A stretch of DNA of 64,000 nt, taken from assembly GCA_019096195.1 (NCBI GenBank), contig JAGTXK010000185.1, positions 124,001-188,000 of the forward strand, written 5' to 3'. The translations under genes were made by a program, and so were the position numbers. This document shows, in pieces, positions 25,105-33,920 of this stretch. The stretch's first letter is position 1; each line of letters begins with the position of its first letter. The stretch is from Boletus sp. NGJ. Taxonomy: Eukaryota > Basidiomycota > Agaricomycetes > Boletales > Boletaceae. The notes under the pieces are model-generated. The model was not told where the DNA came from. It did not search any database and worked only from the letters and a program-made list of their open reading frames with translations.

Positions 25105-28100
25105 TTAGATATAGAACATGGTCCCAGCCAGATTCGGGTGAACGCCGTTACCCCACGCCTTCTTGGCAGCCTCAAATACCTTCGCCTTCTCTTCCTCTTT
25201 ATCCGCCTTCGACTTCGTGGTCGTCTTGTCCTCAGAGACCAAGAAATCATTCAAGTAGCACCGGCCCCGCTCGCAAGCGAGATCAGCATAGTACGCCGGG
25301 GGTATGAGACTGACTGCCTTGGTGGCGCGCGCATACATGTAGCTCGCCGTGTTAACGCCTTGCTGCACTTCGTCAGCGCCAAGTTTGCTTTCGTCATACA
25401 CGACGGTGTAATGTGTGGGCTTCGCGTGGCCCTGTAGACCCGCGTGGGCTTGGAGATAAAAGTCAAAATCGAAACTGTTAACAAAAAAAAAAACCACGTT
25501 GAGTCATCATGTGTAAAAGAATAGGTGGAGGTTACACGTACACTGCAGTGATGCCCTGGTCGACTACGGTCCCAGGACGAGGGTTGCCATTCTTGTCCCC
25601 GGAAGCATCGGCGGGCCACATTCGGGCGTGGTGGCGCTTCCCGCATATAATTATCGTCAACTGAGGTCGGTAAGGTTTTCCTGATCCACCTCTGGGCACT
25701 CTCCCGAAAGCGTCGGTTATCTGAGGAAGCTCAGCCTGGAGGACGGTGTCGAATTGTCCCTACGATGTGCTTCAATAATGCAGGCCAAAAAGGAGGATCA
25801 AAGTCGCGCACCTCGGACACGCCATCTCGGAACACGTATACCCGATCAGGGAGGGACTTGCTGACCTCTTGATACCTCTTCAAGCGTTCGATCATCATTG
25901 CGGTGAGTTCCGTGATCATCTGTTTATAGAGAACGTCAGTGCTATAGTATACCGTAACCGTGAACGGTAGAGTACGCACCTCTTTCTTGGTCTCCTGGCA
26001 CCTCATGCTGGCCGGGAATTGGGCGAAATTACCATCTACACTCGCCACTACAGCCGCAATGGACGGCGTCCCCTCGATACTTCCAGGTCCAGGGTGTGTG
26101 ACATCCATGCCAACCAGCATCGTCTTTGTCTTCGTCAACCACTGTAGGCTCCAATCGTCTATCTTGTGATTGATCCCTCCGAGCTTCGTATTGACTTTCA
26201 ATGCGACGTTCGAGAAGTACTGATCCTGCTTCCTAGGATCTGTAAGAACCTTGTTGGATAACATATGGATAGTGTGTATCCCCAACTCGACATCACAGAT
26301 ACGTTTGATGCCGGGATAGATATAATTGTCGCGCTTGGATAAAAGGACGAGTACGAACGATGGACGTTGAGCTTGTTCCCGGATTTTCACACGAATTCGA
26401 CCGAGGGACTCTTGTCTGCCAGGGTCATTTGTGGGGTCTACCAGACCAACGTTCAAAAGGGTGGGTGCGCTGTCAGGACTAATGCCTGTCATCCCACTTC
26501 TTTGGCATTTTCCAGCAAATCCTTTCCAGAGGGCAGTCAGCTGAGGGTCGCCAGGTCCATTGAAGATGGGGCGTTGCTCCGTGACCACTAAGATCCACCA
26601 TGACTTTACAACACCACCAAGATGAAATTTGACGTCGAGGATATTCCAGCTCCCGTTGTTCACGTTTGGCGGCTTGCCGCCCCTATAGCTGACGCTTGGA
26701 GGAGGAAGTTCCCGGAATGGGATGCCAGCCATGTTGCGACTGACCGATACGTTAAAGTTGGTCAGCTTCTGGTTGTTCGTTGTCAGTCCTAGTAGTGGGA
26801 AACCCTCATTGAGGATGGTCTGGGCATTTTCTGCGGGACGCTTGCACGCGTAGCGGAGCATCAGCGTTGTCTGTTCATCATCAAGTTTGCCACGGAATGG
26901 CTGGCCAGGCAAAATCTCGCATAGCTCGGGTGGCACATAGATGGGGTGCTTGGCGTTTGGACCAGAAATATCGACGACAGGCAGGTCGGGGTGTTTTAAA
27001 GTAATCTTGTACTCTACGCCAGGAATGCAAGTTAGCTCAGCTAGTCGCCCGATGACGAGTCACACATACTTCGTTTGAAATACTGTTCAATGGTTATCTT
27101 TGCGTTGAATTCGTCACATTGGAAAGAAGTGGTCTTTGCCGTCGTGGACATGATCTTCTTCAACGGCTTTGTCTGCTTGTAGCCCAGATGACTGGTGGTC
27201 ACTTTGAGTTTCTGCGCAAAGCGCTGTAGCATGCCCCCTTTCGACTGTCCTCGGAAGCCCACGATGGCATCGGCGAGGTTGCCTGGCTTGTAAAATGCCG
27301 TCATGCAGACGCCGACGTTGACCATGAGTTCTTTATAAACTGGCCGCGCCGACATGAAGAAACCCCTCCATGCTTCAACCCCGATGGAGAGTTCTAGAGG
27401 CCGCCCTTGGGTTGGAAAGAAATAACGGTTTTTCCCAACACGGACTCCATTGTGGGAAGCGTGGTACTGCAGCACTAAATTATGTGCGGACGCAATCGGA
27501 CCAAAATCCCAATATCGAGAATTAGGGTCGCCTTTGATAAAGCTGGAGAAACACGATTAGTGAATGAACCGAGTCTGCGATGGTTGGGCTTACGAATCGA
27601 GATCACTGGAATTGAGTTCCTGAGTGAGAATAATAGAAAAGGTATATGTCTTGTCGTGTTTGCCAGGTTGGGCCTGGCCCTCCTTGAGGAAGAGGATAGG
27701 AACATCGAGTGGTTGTGGCAGCTTCTTTGAAGAAACTAATCTGGCGCTACCATCATGAGCGATGAATGGTACGTATTCCTGCCAGCCGGGGTGGGCACTC
27801 TGCTCGAGCAACGCAAACAAACGGGTTTTGATGCTCTTGAGGTCAGTCTTGGGAGTAACCTCGATGTGGTAATCATAGATGATCCCTGTCTTTGGAAACT
27901 TGACTGGGAAGAAGTTGGCGCGGAGGACGCCAGGTCTGCCGAGTGTCCCGAAACCGGGACGGGTCGGACGCGCGGAGTCGTACGGAATCGACTTTAGAGT
28001 CTTGACGAGCTCGGTGGAGGTGGCGAGGCGCTGGTCAACAGATGCGGGACCTCCGAATACAACATCTCCAGAGACCCCCGCACCTGGTGGCCCAGCGCCT

Positions 28101-28273
28101 CCACCTCTGGGTCCTGGTCGATATCCACCCTGACCACCACTTGGTTGATGACCAGCGGGGCTACCGCCTCTGGGTGGGCCACTGGGGGAAGAGGCACCAC
28201 CGCTCCTGCCACCGTGGGGCTGGCCGCGACCACGGCCACGGCCACGGTTATCACCGCCTCTGTTGCCACTCAT
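25105..28273 (-). CDS. Argonaute protein, copy A (catalytic tetrad intact)
   Basis: Core protein of RNA interference: it binds a small guide RNA and silences matching transcripts. The start at 28273 (MSGNRGGDNRGRGRG) opens an RGG/Gly-Pro-rich disordered region of about 75 residues. Then come the N domain (RPGFGTLGRPGVLRANFFPV), linker 1 (EAWRGFF), PAZ region, MID (IYPGIKRICD area) and PIWI. Slicer residues: Asp in VGMDVTHPGPGS, Glu downstream of MRCQETKKE, Asp in VFRDGVSEGQF (split by an intron after SE) and His in YLQAHAGLQGH. KRHH is also kept (CGKRHHARMWP). The protein ends NLAGTMFYI, the usual Argonaute C-terminus in which the end is bound by the MID-PIWI interface. QDE-2/AGO-like clade of fungi. 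Head to head with copy B. Confidence 0.95.
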
Positions 28274-28905
28274 GTTGAGCTACGTGTCGATGTTGTCGTA
28301 AGTTGTTGGGAGAAAGAGACGTCGTGGCGCGCTGAGGTGTTCCACTACTTATAGAACTTTCCTGTGTTTTATCTTGTTCGGCACACAGGCCACGCGTTTC
28401 CTGCGCAACCGTGGCTCACACTGACTCGCCTGAACTCTTCAGCCAATGAGAATCAGTTTTATCGCCCCATTGCTGTGTGTTCATTTATACATATAGGACA
28501 ATGCGCAGTCCCTAATGACGCGTACGCAGCTGCCAGAAGCATGAGGAACATCACGACCAGCTAGCTCGTGCAAGCTGTAATACCGTTGATGTTCTCAACC
28601 GCCAAGGACAGCTTTATTTAACATGTCTCCTGCATTTTAAATCCCGATCGCAGTATGATAACAGTCACCACCTGATTTGGCTGAATTACTTGCTGCGAGT
28701 CGAGCTCAGCGCAATCTGTAACGAGAGATCCTGGAATCGGGGACCCGTCCTGAAACGGGGAACTCCGACCCAAACCACAGGCAAAGCTGGATGGGAAACG
28801 CATGGTCAGGGAGTGACAAAACACAAAGATTGGAACAAACCTCGACAGACGCGCTACGGCCCATCTTTCTCCAACTCTTGCGACAATATTAACACGTAAC
28901 TTGTC
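28274..28905. promoter_or_regulatory. Shared spacer and promoter region of the two Argonaute genes
   Basis: The 632 bp between the two Argonaute ATGs must drive both genes. Its central part (28440-28730) is not unique sequence but a shrunken copy of DNA found downstream of copy B. No TATA box or known operator was recognised. Confidence 0.6.
28440..28730 (-). pseudogene. Truncated copy of the 3' part of the CLYBL-like gene and its flank
   Basis: Four blocks in this spacer match, in the same order and orientation, DNA beyond the right-hand Argonaute: 28453-28503 with 32162-32210; 28541-28606 with 32314-32370 (C-terminal exon of the CLYBL-like gene); 28659-28700 with 32647-32688; and 28707-28727 with 32963-32983, where 21 consecutive bases are identical. 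The DNA between blocks is lost, so no protein can be made. It is a footprint of the duplication that produced the Argonaute pair. Confidence 0.8.
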
Positions 28906-31900
28906 ATGAGTGCCAACAGAGGCGGTGAGGGCCGTGGCCAGCCCCGCGGTGGCAGGAGCGGTGGTGTCGCCTCACCCAGCGACCCGCCCATCGGTGGGGG
29001 TAGCCCCAGCACCCACCAACCAAGTGCTAGTCGTGGTAGATTTCGAAGAGGAGGAAGAGGAAGAGGTGGTGGATCCGATGTTGTATTCGGAGGTCCCGCC
29101 GCATCTGCTGATCAGCGCCTCGCCACCTCCACCGAGCTCGTCAAGTCTCTAAAGTCGATTCCGTATGACTGCGTGCGTCCGACCCGTCCCGGTTTCGGGA
29201 CACTCGGCAGACCTGGCGTCCTCCGCGCCAACTTCTTCCCAGTCAAGTTTCCAAGGACAGGGATCATCTATGACCACCACATCGAGATTACTCCCAAAAC
29301 TGATCTCAAGAGCATCAGAACCCGTTTGTTTGCGTTGCTCGAGCAGAGTGCCCACCCCGGCTGGCAGGAATACGTACCATTCATCGCTCATGATGGTAGC
29401 GCCAGATTAGTTTCCTCAAAGAGGCTGCCCCAACCACTCGATGTTCCTATCCTCTTCCTCCAGGAGGGTCAGGCACAGCCTAGCCAACACGACAGGACAT
29501 ACACCTTCTCCATTACTCTCACTCAGGAACTCAATTCCAGTGATCTCGATTCGTAAGACCAACCATCATAAACTCGTTTCGCTCACTGATCGCGGTGTCC
29601 CAGCTTTATCAACGGCGACCCTAACTTCCGATACCATGATCCTTCCCCGATTATATCGGCACACAATTTGGTACTGCAGTACCATGCTTTCCACAGCGGA
29701 GTTCGTGTTAGGAAGAATGCTTATTTCTTTCCTCCCCGCAGGCGAGCTATGGAACTCTCCATCGGAGTTGATGCATGGAGGGGTTTCTTCATGCCGGCAC
29801 GGCCAGTTTACAAAGAACTCATGATCAACGTCGGTATCTGCATGTCGGCGTTCTATAAAGCGGGCAACCTGGCCCGGGCCCTCATGGAGTTCCAAGAGAG
29901 GTCGGCAGGCGCCATCCCACGGCGCTTCGCGCAGAGACTCAGAGTGACCATCAGTTATCTGGGTTACAGGCAGACAAAGGTGGTACAGAGGATCATGTCC
30001 ACGACGGCAAGGACTACTTCTTTCCAATGTGACGAATTCAACGCAACGATGACCATCGAACAGTATTTCATGCAAAGTACGTCTGACAACTCGTGATCGA
30101 GCGACGAGCCAGTTAATTTCCACACTTTACACAGAGCACCACATCACTTTGACATACCCCGACCTACCCGTCATCAAATTATTTGGTCCAAATGCCAACC
30201 ACTCCACCTATGTGCCACCCGAGCTATGCAAGATTTTGCCTGGCCAGCCATTCCGTGGCAAACTTGATGATGAACAGACAGATCTGATGCTCCGCCACGC
30301 GCGCAAGCGTCCCGTTGACAATGCCCGGGCCATCCTCAATGATGGTGTCCCGATGCTAGGACTGAGGCGGAACAACCAGAAGCTGACAAACTTTGGCATC
30401 TCAGTCAGTCGCAACATGGCTGGCATCCCATTCCGGGAGCTCCCTCCTCCGGGTGTCAGCTATAGGGACAGCAAGCCGGTAAACGTGAACAACGGGAGCT
30501 GGAATATCCTCGACGTCAAATTTCATCTTGGTGGTGTTGTAAAGTCATGGTGGATCTTAGTGGCCACGGACCAACGCCCCATCTTCAATGGACCTGGCGA
30601 CCCTCAGCTGACTGCCCTCTGGAAAGGATTTGCTGGAAAATGCCAAAGAAGTGGGATGACAGGCATTAGTCCTGACAGCGCACCCACCCTTTTGAACGTT
30701 GGTCTGGTAGACCCCACAAATGACCCTGGCAGACAAGAGTCCCTCGGTCGAATTCGCTCGACCATCCGGGACAACCAAGCTCAACATGGAACCCCATCGT
30801 TCGTACTCGTCCTTTTATCCAAGCGCGACAGTTATATCTATCCCGGAATCAAACGTATCTGTGATGTCGAGTTGGGGATACACACTATCCATATGTTATC
30901 CAACAAGGTTCTTACAGATCCTAGGAAGCAGGATCAGTACTTCTCGAACGTCGCATTGAAAGTCAATACGAAGCTCGGAGGGATCAATCACAAGATAGAC
31001 GATTGGAGCCTACAGTGGTTGACGAAGACAAAGACGATGCTGGTTGGCATGGACGTCACACATCCTGGACCTGGAAGTATCGAGGGGACGCCGTCCATTG
31101 CGGCTGTAGTGGCGAGTGTAGATGGTAATTTCGCCCAATTCCCGGCCAGCATGAGGTGCCAGGAGACCAAGAAAGAGGTGCGTACTCTACCGTTCACGGT
31201 TACGGTATACTATAGCACTGACGTTCTCTATAAACAGATGATCACGGAACTCACCGCAATGATGATCGAACGCTTGAAGAGGTATCAAGAGGTCAGCAAG
31301 TCCCTCCCTGAGCGGGTATACGTCTTTCGATGTGGCGTGTCCAATGTGCGCGATTCTGATCCCCGCTTTGGCCTGCGTTATTGAAGCACATCGTAGGCAC
31401 AATTCGACATCGTCCTCCAGGCTGAGCTTCCTCAGATAACCGACGCTTTCAAGAGAGTGAACCCCAGAGGTGGATCAGGAAAACCTTACCGACCTCAGCT
31501 GACGATCGTCATATGCGGCAAAGCCAACCACGCCCGAATGTGGCCCCCCGATGCTTCCGCAGACAAGGATGGAAATCCTCGTCCTGGGACCGTAGTCGAC
31601 CAGGGCATCACTGCAATGTACGCACAATCCAATCATTTCCCTCTGTCATGAGAATTCAGCATGCTTCACAGCTTCGACTTTGACTTTTATCTCCAAACCC
31701 ACGCGGCTCTAAATGGCCACGCGAAGCCGAAACGTTACACCGTTTTATACGACGAAAGCAGGCTCGGTGCAGATGAAATCCAGCAGGGCATTAACACGAC
31801 GAGCTATCTCTATGCCCGCGCCACCAAGGCGGTCAGTTTCATGCCCCCGACATACTACGCCGAACTCGCTTGCAAGCGCGGCCGGTGCTACCTGAATGAC

Positions 31901-32023
31901 TTTTTCTCTGGAACAGGGACGACAGACGAGGAAGAAGAGCGGGCGCAGGTGTTTGGTGCTGCTAGGAGGGCGTGGGGTAACGGTATCCATCCAAATCTGG
32001 CTGGGTCCATGTTCTACATTTGA
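28906..32023 (+). CDS. Argonaute protein, copy B (predicted slicer-deficient)
   Basis: Paralogue of the gene at 25105-28273 in inverted orientation, with the same exon layout. The start is ATG 28906 (MSANRGGEGRGQPRGG), again with an RGG-type N-terminus, then N, PAZ, MID and PIWI domains, and the end NLAGSMFYI at 32023. In PIWI the first Asp (VGMDVTHPGPGS) and the final His (YLQTHAALNGH) are present, but the third tetrad position is Cys: VFRCGVSN in place of VFRDGVSE. Other normally fixed positions also differ: CGKANHARMWP instead of KRHH, and AKPKRYTVL instead of PTHY. The reading frame and splice sites stay intact, so it probably still makes protein that may bind guides without cutting. Roles in regulation of copy A, translational silencing or decoy function are inference. 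Confidence 0.95.
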
Positions 32024-32305
32024 GTTTTGGCTAACCGAAGGCTCGAGGGCTCAGACGTGTGCTCTGTTACGCCATTTTCATCTTCTGTATGACTTGTATT
32101 TCGACGTGCTCCGTGTACGAAAACCAGCGAGCGACTCAGTCTGGAACTCTGCCGACGGGAAACAGTTTATCACAGCATTGCTGTGTCTTGTAATATGTAC
32201 AGAACAATGAACGAGCACGGCCATGGCGCGTATGCACGACGGTGGAGAAGGGGAGTTTCTAGAAACGAGTTTAAATAACGTTAGTCACCATCACATATCA
32301 ACTAT

Positions 32306-33920
32306 TAATCCACATGAGGAATATCACAACCAGCAGCTCGTGCCAGCCGTATGATGTTCTCAGCCTGCATCGCATTCACTATCAGCCTCGACGGCCTTGT
32401 CCAAACAAGGGGACACCCACCTGCTTCAACATGGGTGCATCAATCATCTCTTTACCCCCACCTTCCATTTCAAGCCCAAATGCACCCTTCTGATTGGAAT
32501 ATACTGTATTCATCCGATGGAGGATCTTGGCAGCACGGAGTATCTCTGCATTTCCGATCGGCATGCATCCCATATCATTACCAATTATTCAGAGTTCGAG
32601 ATAGAACATGAGCCGCACCGTGGAACGTCGGTACAAACGAGGCGTTAACAGTCGCTACCTGGTTTGGATGAATGACTTGCTGCGAGTCGAACGTGAGTGT
32701 GCCGAATCAATGGAGATAAAGAACTCGGCCATGCCTTGCCAGTGAAGCCGAGTCGCCTGCCGTCTTGGCATTCTTCGCGTAGGTGTTCTGGGTCCTTGTA
32801 GTTCACGCACACCTGAAATGCCAGTTCAGACAGCGAGATGGAGGGAAAGACGTAGCTATACCATGTCTATGGCTTCGAGTTCGAAAGCCTTGGCCATGAT
32901 CACAATCTGTGAACGCACATAGAGTAATTCCTGTTTAGACGTCGTCCGCACCACAGACGCATCAGCGCAATCTGTAACGAGAGTTCACACATGGAACCTT
33001 GAGGGAAAAGGACAGAGACATACAATCCTCTGCGGCAAACTAGTAGCTGTCCATGAGAACTCCCGTGTATCAGACGAGCGAGCCGGCTCGGAGCTTACTT
33101 ACCAGAAGTGCTGTCAATTCACCGCCTTTCTCAGCCCCGAATTCCGACCTCCACCTAGCAATATCCCCTAAGCCTACAACAGAGCGTGCGCTCTCTATGC
33201 TGGCTACGATGCGCAACGGGGTGGAAGACGTATTTGCATTACGTATGGTACGAGAGACGTAGTGCAAATCTCGGTCGGAGTGAATCTTGGGGAGTACGAG
33301 GGTGCCCACGGATGGGTATCTGAGCTTTCCCGAGGAGCTTGCGTGAGTGTCAGGTTACAGAAACAAGAAAAGGGACATACAATCTCAGTTATATCGTCCT
33401 CGAAAAAGGGCGTGCTTATGTCGTTAAGTCGGACGGCGACGCGCTCGGAAGGAGGTAGGTTCTCCTTTGGTGTCCGCTGTCGCTCCTACATCAGCACCCA
33501 TGACGCCACGTCAAGTCGTTAGACCACGGACATGCAGGAACTGGCTGAGCCGCTGTCTTGCCGCTTTCTTGTCGTGTGGGGTAGGAGTAACGCTGTCTTC
33601 AAGGTCATAAATTACAACATCTGGGGGTGCTCCGAGGGCGAGTGACTTCTCGAGCATTCTATCTGACGAGGCAGGGACTAGAGGAGGGATTCATCGATAT
33701 AGAACATAATGGAACCAGTTCCGAGGAACAGACCATAGAGGTACGAGCGACGCAATGTAGGCTCGCTGGACGTGGTAGTGCTCAGCAGCCTCCGAGAGGC
33801 CGTGAAGTTACAGAACCTGACATGGCGTGCGATGTCGTACGTGGTAGCACACCGAAGAATTGGGGTTCGTATCCGTGAATTCATCCTTGAGCTTGTGAGC
33901 AACGTCCCCAGGGCCACCAT
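32306..33920 (-). CDS. CitE-like lyase of the HpcH/HpaI family, CLYBL-like, mitochondrial
   Basis: TIM-barrel Mg2+-dependent C-C lyase family; the mitochondrial CLYBL enzyme cleaves citramalyl-CoA. The N-terminus from ATG 33920 is Arg/Ser/Thr-rich without acidic residues for about 50 residues (RHVRFCNFTASRRLLSTTTS), a good mitochondrial presequence; ATG 33884 is an alternative start. Motifs: APPDVVIYDLEDSVTP near 33600, TLVLPKIHSDRDLHYV near 33290, LRIVASIESARSVVGLGD near 33200 (Glu is the metal ligand), FAAEDYCADASVVRT joined over an intron near 32980 (second acidic ligand), IHPNQV-type region near 32570 and the C-terminus IIRLARAAGCDIPHVD at 32306. Convergent with Argonaute copy B, and a fragment of it is duplicated in the Argonaute spacer. 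The exact substrate is not shown by sequence. Confidence 0.88.

Follow-up and report, generated by a model that had tools for sequence, protein, structure and literature searches.

Two Argonaute genes face each other in a 64,000-nucleotide stretch of the genome of Boletus sp. NGJ (assembly GCA_019096195.1, contig JAGTXK010000185.1, positions 124,001 to 188,000; hereafter the window, in whose numbering positions are given), and one of them has lost an acidic residue of its catalytic centre. Does this copy live on as a protein that binds guides without cutting, or is it a gene at the beginning of its decay? A first-pass annotation made from the sequence alone chose the former, describing copy B as a maintained, guide-binding but non-cutting Argonaute next to a catalytic partner, copy A. 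The analysis presented here assigns a probability of roughly 0.55 to B being a cleavage-dead, guide-loading Argonaute paralogue. On this reading, B would have arisen by inverted duplication of A, a slicing-type Argonaute, and metal-dependent cleavage would have been lost through replacement of the third tetrad Asp by Cys and of the fourth by Glu. With all its domains and most of the guide 5′-phosphate pocket still present, the protein would most likely still load small RNAs and bind their targets without cutting, and could act in one of two ways: by silencing independently of slicing, or by competing with A for guides or targets.

Both copies are complete genes (Table 1) with six exons at matching positions and GT-AG borders at all five introns. 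In the spliced models, the exons of B (plus strand) span 28906-29552, 29604-30076, 30135-31177, 31238-31345, 31397-31617 and 31672-32023, and those of A (minus strand) span 28273-27594, 27542-27070, 27013-25980, 25919-25812, 25759-25542 and 25474-25105. A search of copy B for marks of a pseudogene (stops, frameshifts, lost introns) found none: its five introns are kept and no stop occurs over 947 codons. Five Pfam families (ArgoN, ArgoL1, PAZ, ArgoL2 and Piwi) all score over their cut-offs in B; the same five are present in A, where ArgoL2 reaches 32.4 bits, slightly below its cut-off of 33.3. The A and B proteins share 781 identical residues over 941 aligned positions, compared with 399 over 864 for A and L009, the nearer of two other Argonautes in the same alignment. 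Because a protein alignment forces whole codons, gap runs were counted again on the DNA alignment. Here the coding sequences show 326 differences and nine gap runs, each a multiple of three, and the reading frame is the same for 2826 of 2826 aligned bases. The earlier statement that the splice sites, frame and protein ends of B are intact is thus confirmed.

Table 1. Positions of the two Argonaute copies, their flanking repeats, the homogenised tracts and the altered or retained active-site residues within the window.
Feature	Positions	Strand	Remarks
Copy A	25105..28273	-	Complete Argonaute gene, six exons, 960 aa, tetrad D-E-D-D; spliced model, Pfam
Spacer between the two start codons	28274..28905	.	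632 bp; may be a shared promoter; gene models
Copy B	28906..32023	+	Complete Argonaute gene, six exons, 947 aa, tetrad D-E-C-E; spliced model, Pfam
Second homogenised tract, N-terminal part	29113..29552	+	Less recent; 12/132 silent sites differ
Tract near-identical to A (end of L2, MID, first half of PIWI)	30437..31311	+	7/303 silent sites differ; recent gene conversion
Asp680, first tetrad position	31052..31054	+	Kept; within converted tract
Glu721, second tetrad position (glutamate finger)	31175..31177	+	Kept; within converted tract
Cys753 (TGT), third tetrad position	31331..31333	+	Asp761 in A (GAT, 25826-25824); aligns to AGO2 D669
GVSE to GVSN, catalytic loop	31343..31345	+	GAG to AAT, two bases changed
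KRHH to KANH	31523..31528	+	AGO2 R710 and H711 positions
PTHY to PKRY	31730..31735	+	AGO2 S763/H764, counted along the AGO2 alignment; outside tetrad
Glu895 (GAA), fourth tetrad position	31862..31864	+	Asp902 in A (GAT, 25284-25282); aligns to AGO2 H807
Spacer sequence (28432-28730) repeated in direct orientation, with interruptions, downstream of B	32144..32986	.	Four colinear blastn matches

The pair, a head-to-head inverted duplicate, is found on contig C122 in a genome of 32.8 Mb and 141 contigs. When the genome DNA was searched with B and its flanks as query, the matches were B itself, A, a 64-base match in the L011 gene region on C10 and a 45-base spacer repeat; no third full copy was found in this search. 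Copies of A's upstream sequence flank B on both sides, the spacer repeat having kept its order and orientation, with interruptions. This repeat (28432-28730 and 32144-32986) may record the origin of the inverted copy. An Arg-Gly-rich tail opens both copies (28906-29112 in B; 28273-28070 in A), with indels of one to seven codons between them.

Alignment to the human AGO2 chains in the PDB identifies the catalytic tetrad as D688-E729-D761-D902 in A and D680-E721-C753-E895 in B. The disappearance of the third slicer Asp, noted at first pass as a change from RDGVSE to RCGVSN, is therefore real, and a further change had been overlooked: the fourth tetrad Asp has become Glu, the motif reading YYAH807 in AGO2, YYAD in A and YYAE in B. 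Two other changes in the first-pass annotation, KRHH to KANH and PTHY to PKRY, are both present, the second of them outside the tetrad. PTHY to PKRY was also considered as the site of the fourth tetrad residue, and was ruled out by the AGO2 alignment, in which that site is YYAD/YYAE. Near the Cys, two bases have changed in each of three codons (GAT-TGT, GAG-AAT and GGG-AAG). Four other Argonaute loci (L009-L012) were found in the genome; these read RDG[VL]SE and Y[YW]AD, with Asp kept at positions three and four, and B is the sole exception among the six loci found, locus counts being lower bounds for large families. In one of the four, L012 (C22:1931500-1939500), the motif is RDGLSEGEY, and the automatic gene model contains stops outside PIWI.

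A slicing Argonaute requires a complete D-E-D-D/H tetrad, and B has D-E-C-E. According to work on AtAGO10 and AGO2, the third tetrad Asp is required for the metal at site B, and its replacement removes this metal in both proteins (PMC10772731). The residue lost from B is the second D of DD[HDEK], a relaxed functional motif, and the first two residues of DDH are described as well conserved in fungi (PMC4290597). The Glu at the fourth position, in contrast, may be harmless, since DD[HDEK] is counted as functional and most fungal Argonautes are reported to carry DD[DEK] (PMC4290597). The Cys at the third position should thus abolish slicing by B, and the first-pass prediction of a non-cutting protein is well supported by what is reported of the site-B metal (PMC10772731). 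The proposal of an adjacent catalytic partner likewise fits the complete D-E-D-D tetrad of A, a predicted slicer. Copy B, in turn, has the attributes of a slicer-dead paralogue: it is full-length, its tetrad is predicted to be disabled, and a slicer-type sister exists in the genome.

The guide 5′-phosphate pocket of AGO2, which we take to be formed by Y529, K533, Q545, K566, K570 and R812, has its equivalents in B at five of six positions (Y529, K533, K566, K570 and R812), and Q545 is replaced by Ile in both A and B. At the position of AGO2 R710, which belongs to a base-stacking site (PMC7522536), B has Ala, and this replacement may weaken its contact with the guide. Judged from its sequence, B is likely to load guides; the description of B as guide-binding draws support from the five pocket residues, whereas the Ala at the R710 position tells against it.

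Similarity between the two copies is distributed very unevenly, the pair having been homogenised by patchy gene conversion. Silent sites, defined as degenerate codons of shared amino acids together with intron bases, differ at 11 of 46 in the tail, 63 of 285 in the middle, 7 of 90 in 31312-31498, 28 of 85 in 31499-31671 and 28 of 84 in the last exon; values for the two homogenised tracts are given in Table 1. The longest run of identical silent sites is 121; none of 10000 permutations gave a run of that length (maximum 90). The third intron (31178-31237) is identical at 60 of 60 bases, compared with 38/51, 39/59, 46/52 and 32/67 matching aligned columns in the other four. The longest identical DNA run stops at 31311, about 20 bases short of the Cys codon. 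Inside the near-identical tract lies a divergent island (about 30755-30830) with two coding indels of one and two codons, which suggests more than one conversion event. That the near-identity of A and B in the first half of PIWI stems from recent gene conversion was not noticed at first pass. This origin bears on the active site: positions three and four fall outside the tract and D1 and E2 of B inside it, so that the retention of D1 and E2 may reflect overwriting by A and is not independent evidence of selection.

The first-pass annotation had named a dN/dS below 1 in PIWI as support for a retained role. Pairwise omega between A and B is 0.40 overall (0.31-0.51), 0.50 in the middle, 0.26 in the C-terminal part of PIWI (CI 0.16-0.41) and 0.18 in the last exon (0.10-0.30). 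Codon models were fitted with L009 and L011 as outgroups, both saturated at synonymous sites. The protein alignment has 966 columns, 25 of them gapped; 848 codon columns are ungapped in all four sequences used, and the 444 of these outside the tracts were used in the non-tract tests. In a free-branch model, only the C-terminal part departs significantly from omega B = 1 (p = 0.023); neither the middle (p = 0.51) nor the full set of non-tract codons (p = 0.34) does so. Free-branch omegas are unstable owing to the saturated outgroups (omega A reaches 6.6 in the C-terminal part, and omega B 6.4 in the middle); thus, a version with a synonymous clock, which imposes equal synonymous change on A and B, was preferred. 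Under this clock, omega B is 0.48 in the C-terminal part, 0.39 in the last exon, 0.69 in the middle and 0.59 over all non-tract codons, and omega A is 0.08 in the C-terminal part and 0.20 over all non-tract codons. Three of these four sets reject neutrality of B (omega B = 1), namely the C-terminal part (p = 0.0027), the last exon (p = 0.0012) and all non-tract codons (p = 0.0024); the middle does not (p = 0.11). Equality of omega A and omega B gives p = 0.0003 for the C-terminal part, 0.001 for the last exon, 0.088 for the middle and 0.0003 for non-tract codons. Calibration of the clock version by 60 neutral simulations covered the C-terminal part, whose statistic was reached in 0/60.

Amino-acid changes polarised to B, polarised to A or left unassigned number 23:5:14 in the C-terminal part (binomial p = 0.0009), 22:15:30 in the middle, 4:4:3 in the first tract, 0:5:6 in the second tract and 1:0:0 in the N-terminal part; the second-tract count (0 for B versus 5 for A) runs counter to faster evolution of B there. 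Across its whole branch, the B protein has changed faster than A under the synonymous clock, yet non-neutrally; the free-branch results are weaker. With the clock, a dN/dS significantly below 1 was obtained in the C-terminal part, in the last exon and over the non-tract codons, and not in the middle.

These tests average the whole branch, before and after loss of the Asp. Around the Cys (31310-31498), nine nonsynonymous and two synonymous differences correspond to a pN/pS of 1.5 (Fisher p = 0.73); in the part of the tract just before it (30846-31309) the counts are zero and two. The catalytic loop thus seems either to be free of constraint or to have changed under selection, and constraint is evident in the protein beyond it. 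Because silent divergence around the Cys is low (7/90) and no constraint is visible there, the Asp may have been lost recently. If the low divergence reflects homogenisation, the loss would fall roughly in the final quarter of the time that the pair has existed (0.078 versus 0.333). The probability that the non-tract frame is still intact after a neutral period is 0.0036 for a period of 20% of the branch, 0.06 for 10% and 0.11 for 8%, assuming that 70% of indels shift the frame and that 0.089 indels occur per substitution (5 intronic events among 56 substitutions). Long neutral drift of B is thus unlikely in view of its intact frame. The claim that B is maintained holds for the branch as a whole, on the strength of the clock tests and the intact frame; after loss of the Asp, constraint may have continued, but drift following a very late loss is compatible with the frame-survival figures.

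Several lines converge on a cleavage-dead, guide-loading B: the intact six-exon frame with its five Argonaute domains and 9/9 whole-codon gaps; a Cys at the equivalent of AGO2 D669, a residue needed for the site-B metal (PMC10772731); the five retained pocket positions; the constraint seen in omega, the polarised B and A changes and the low frame survival (P = 0.0036 at 20%); and the RdRP and two-domain RNase III (Dicer-type) loci elsewhere in the genome. Neutrality unrejected in the free-branch tests of the middle and of all non-tract codons, and in the middle even with the clock, speaks against it, as do the pN/pS around the Cys, the Ala at R710 and the averaging over the whole branch. The main rival, which we consider possible though doubtful, is that B is a copy in early decay: its Asp would have been lost not long ago, selection on it would have been nearly absent from then on, and it would be propped up by conversion from A, with too little time for disabling mutations to arise. 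The low silent divergence in 31312-31498 is compatible with recent homogenisation, hence with a late loss; a neutral period of 8-10% of the branch leaves the frame intact with a probability of 0.11-0.06; and the pN/pS of 1.5, the higher non-tract omega of B (0.59 versus 0.20) and the location of D1 and E2 in converted sequence agree with such a history. However, three two-base codons near the Cys, in addition to altered KRHH, PTHY and YYAD motifs, are a great deal for a very short neutral window, and the last exon is constrained over the pair (omega 0.18), with the frame, splice sites and start of B intact. The reading of B as cleavage-dead and guide-loading would include selection that continued after the Asp was lost.

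The remaining explanations depart further from this picture. B might still cut RNA by means of its other acidic residues, with the Cys or a neighbour replacing the third Asp; D1 and E2 are indeed kept, and Glu at the fourth position falls within the functional DD[HDEK] and resembles the DD[DEK] of most fungal Argonautes (PMC4290597). Nevertheless, the dependence of the site-B metal on the third Asp (PMC10772731), the reported conservation of the first two DDH residues in fungi (PMC4290597) and the additional changes to the motif Glu (GVSE) and KRHH render continued cutting very unlikely. Only a slim chance is given to retention of B mainly for a non-protein role, be it as a template in the repair of A or through regulatory RNA made from the inverted repeat: arm-to-arm conversion is evident, and a foldback RNA could form from the repeat if it were read through, but the protein constraint in the last exon, the whole-codon gaps and the intact splice sites argue against it. 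Finally, a 3-kb inverted repeat is difficult to assemble, and the Cys might be a sequencing or assembly error. This is scarcely credible, as a single miscalled base cannot explain either the D-to-C change or the E-to-N change 12 bases further, each of which alters two bases; moreover, the gaps stay in multiples of three (9/9) amid 326 coding differences, and A and B lie on one contig, the genome DNA search having yielded no third full copy.

Comparison with known systems places the pair in context. Human AGO4 carries Gly and Arg at tetrad positions three and four and does not slice (PMC10772731); B resembles it in being full-length, predicted not to slice and altered at the same two positions, but has Cys and Glu there, is paired in inverted orientation with a slicer-type sister, shows recent conversion and is not an orthologue. 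The tandem AGO cluster of Phytophthora clade 7 (AGO5/8/9 groups) also comprises local duplicates with altered tetrads, for example D-E-G-N and N-D-G-R, in which MID residues are better conserved than those of PIWI; its authors leave undecided whether these genes have a different function or are pseudogenes (PMC6284064). Unlike the A/B pair, this is an oomycete system and a direct tandem array of up to five genes, and the term "gene conversion" has 0 occurrences in the main text of that paper (PMC6284064). Altered tetrads in local duplicates are therefore already known from Phytophthora, and the A/B pair adds conversion with a slicer-type sister. Compared by tetrad, the VvAgo1 subfamily of basidiomycetes and KpAGO share D-E-D-D with copy A (PMC7522536) and differ from copy B at positions three and four. 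A literature search at title and abstract level, covering few subscription papers, returned no slicer-dead fungal Argonaute pair with gene conversion among the matches listed.

Slicer-dead Argonautes are usually seen long after their formation. Here, the slicer-type sister still lies head to head with B, and silent sites reveal which half was exchanged recently. The pair thus opens two questions to testing: is the loss of cutting adaptive or does it mark the onset of decay, and do particular catalytic residues survive because of conversion rather than selection? It also counsels caution, as high identity and retained residues between duplicate Argonautes can come from conversion. A more far-reaching scenario, improbable at present, is that the palindrome is a maintained slicer/non-slicer pair in which conversion matches the guide-binding halves and selection bars conversion across the catalytic loop. 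Were this the case, A and B, with near-identical MID and first half of PIWI, would share small RNAs as one cutter and one matched non-cutting competitor, and a Dicer-type inverted twin of similar divergence would hint at a second, parallel silencing branch.

Around the pair, 8 of the 10 neighbouring frames scanned have a Pfam match, some under the cut-off (OB-fold, AAA/DEAD, mitochondrial carrier, HR1, C1 domain, WW/DUF7783, EF-Tu domain 2 and UAA transporter). Elsewhere in the genome, RdRP matches over the cut-off occur on four contigs (C81, C77, C22 and C14), and two-domain, Dicer-type RNase III loci occur once on C22 and twice on C109. The counts found, which are lower bounds for large families, fall within the Agaricomycotina ranges given in PMC4290597. 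The two Dicer-type loci on C109, L033 (C109:48500-56500) and L034 (C109:67500-75500), form an inverted local twin; they are convergent and 86.3% identical over 5.3 kb. Their 3′ frame contains 100-base blocks at 97-100% identity, which suggests conversion there as well. The helicase-like part of the second copy is split between two frames, by a shift or an intron.
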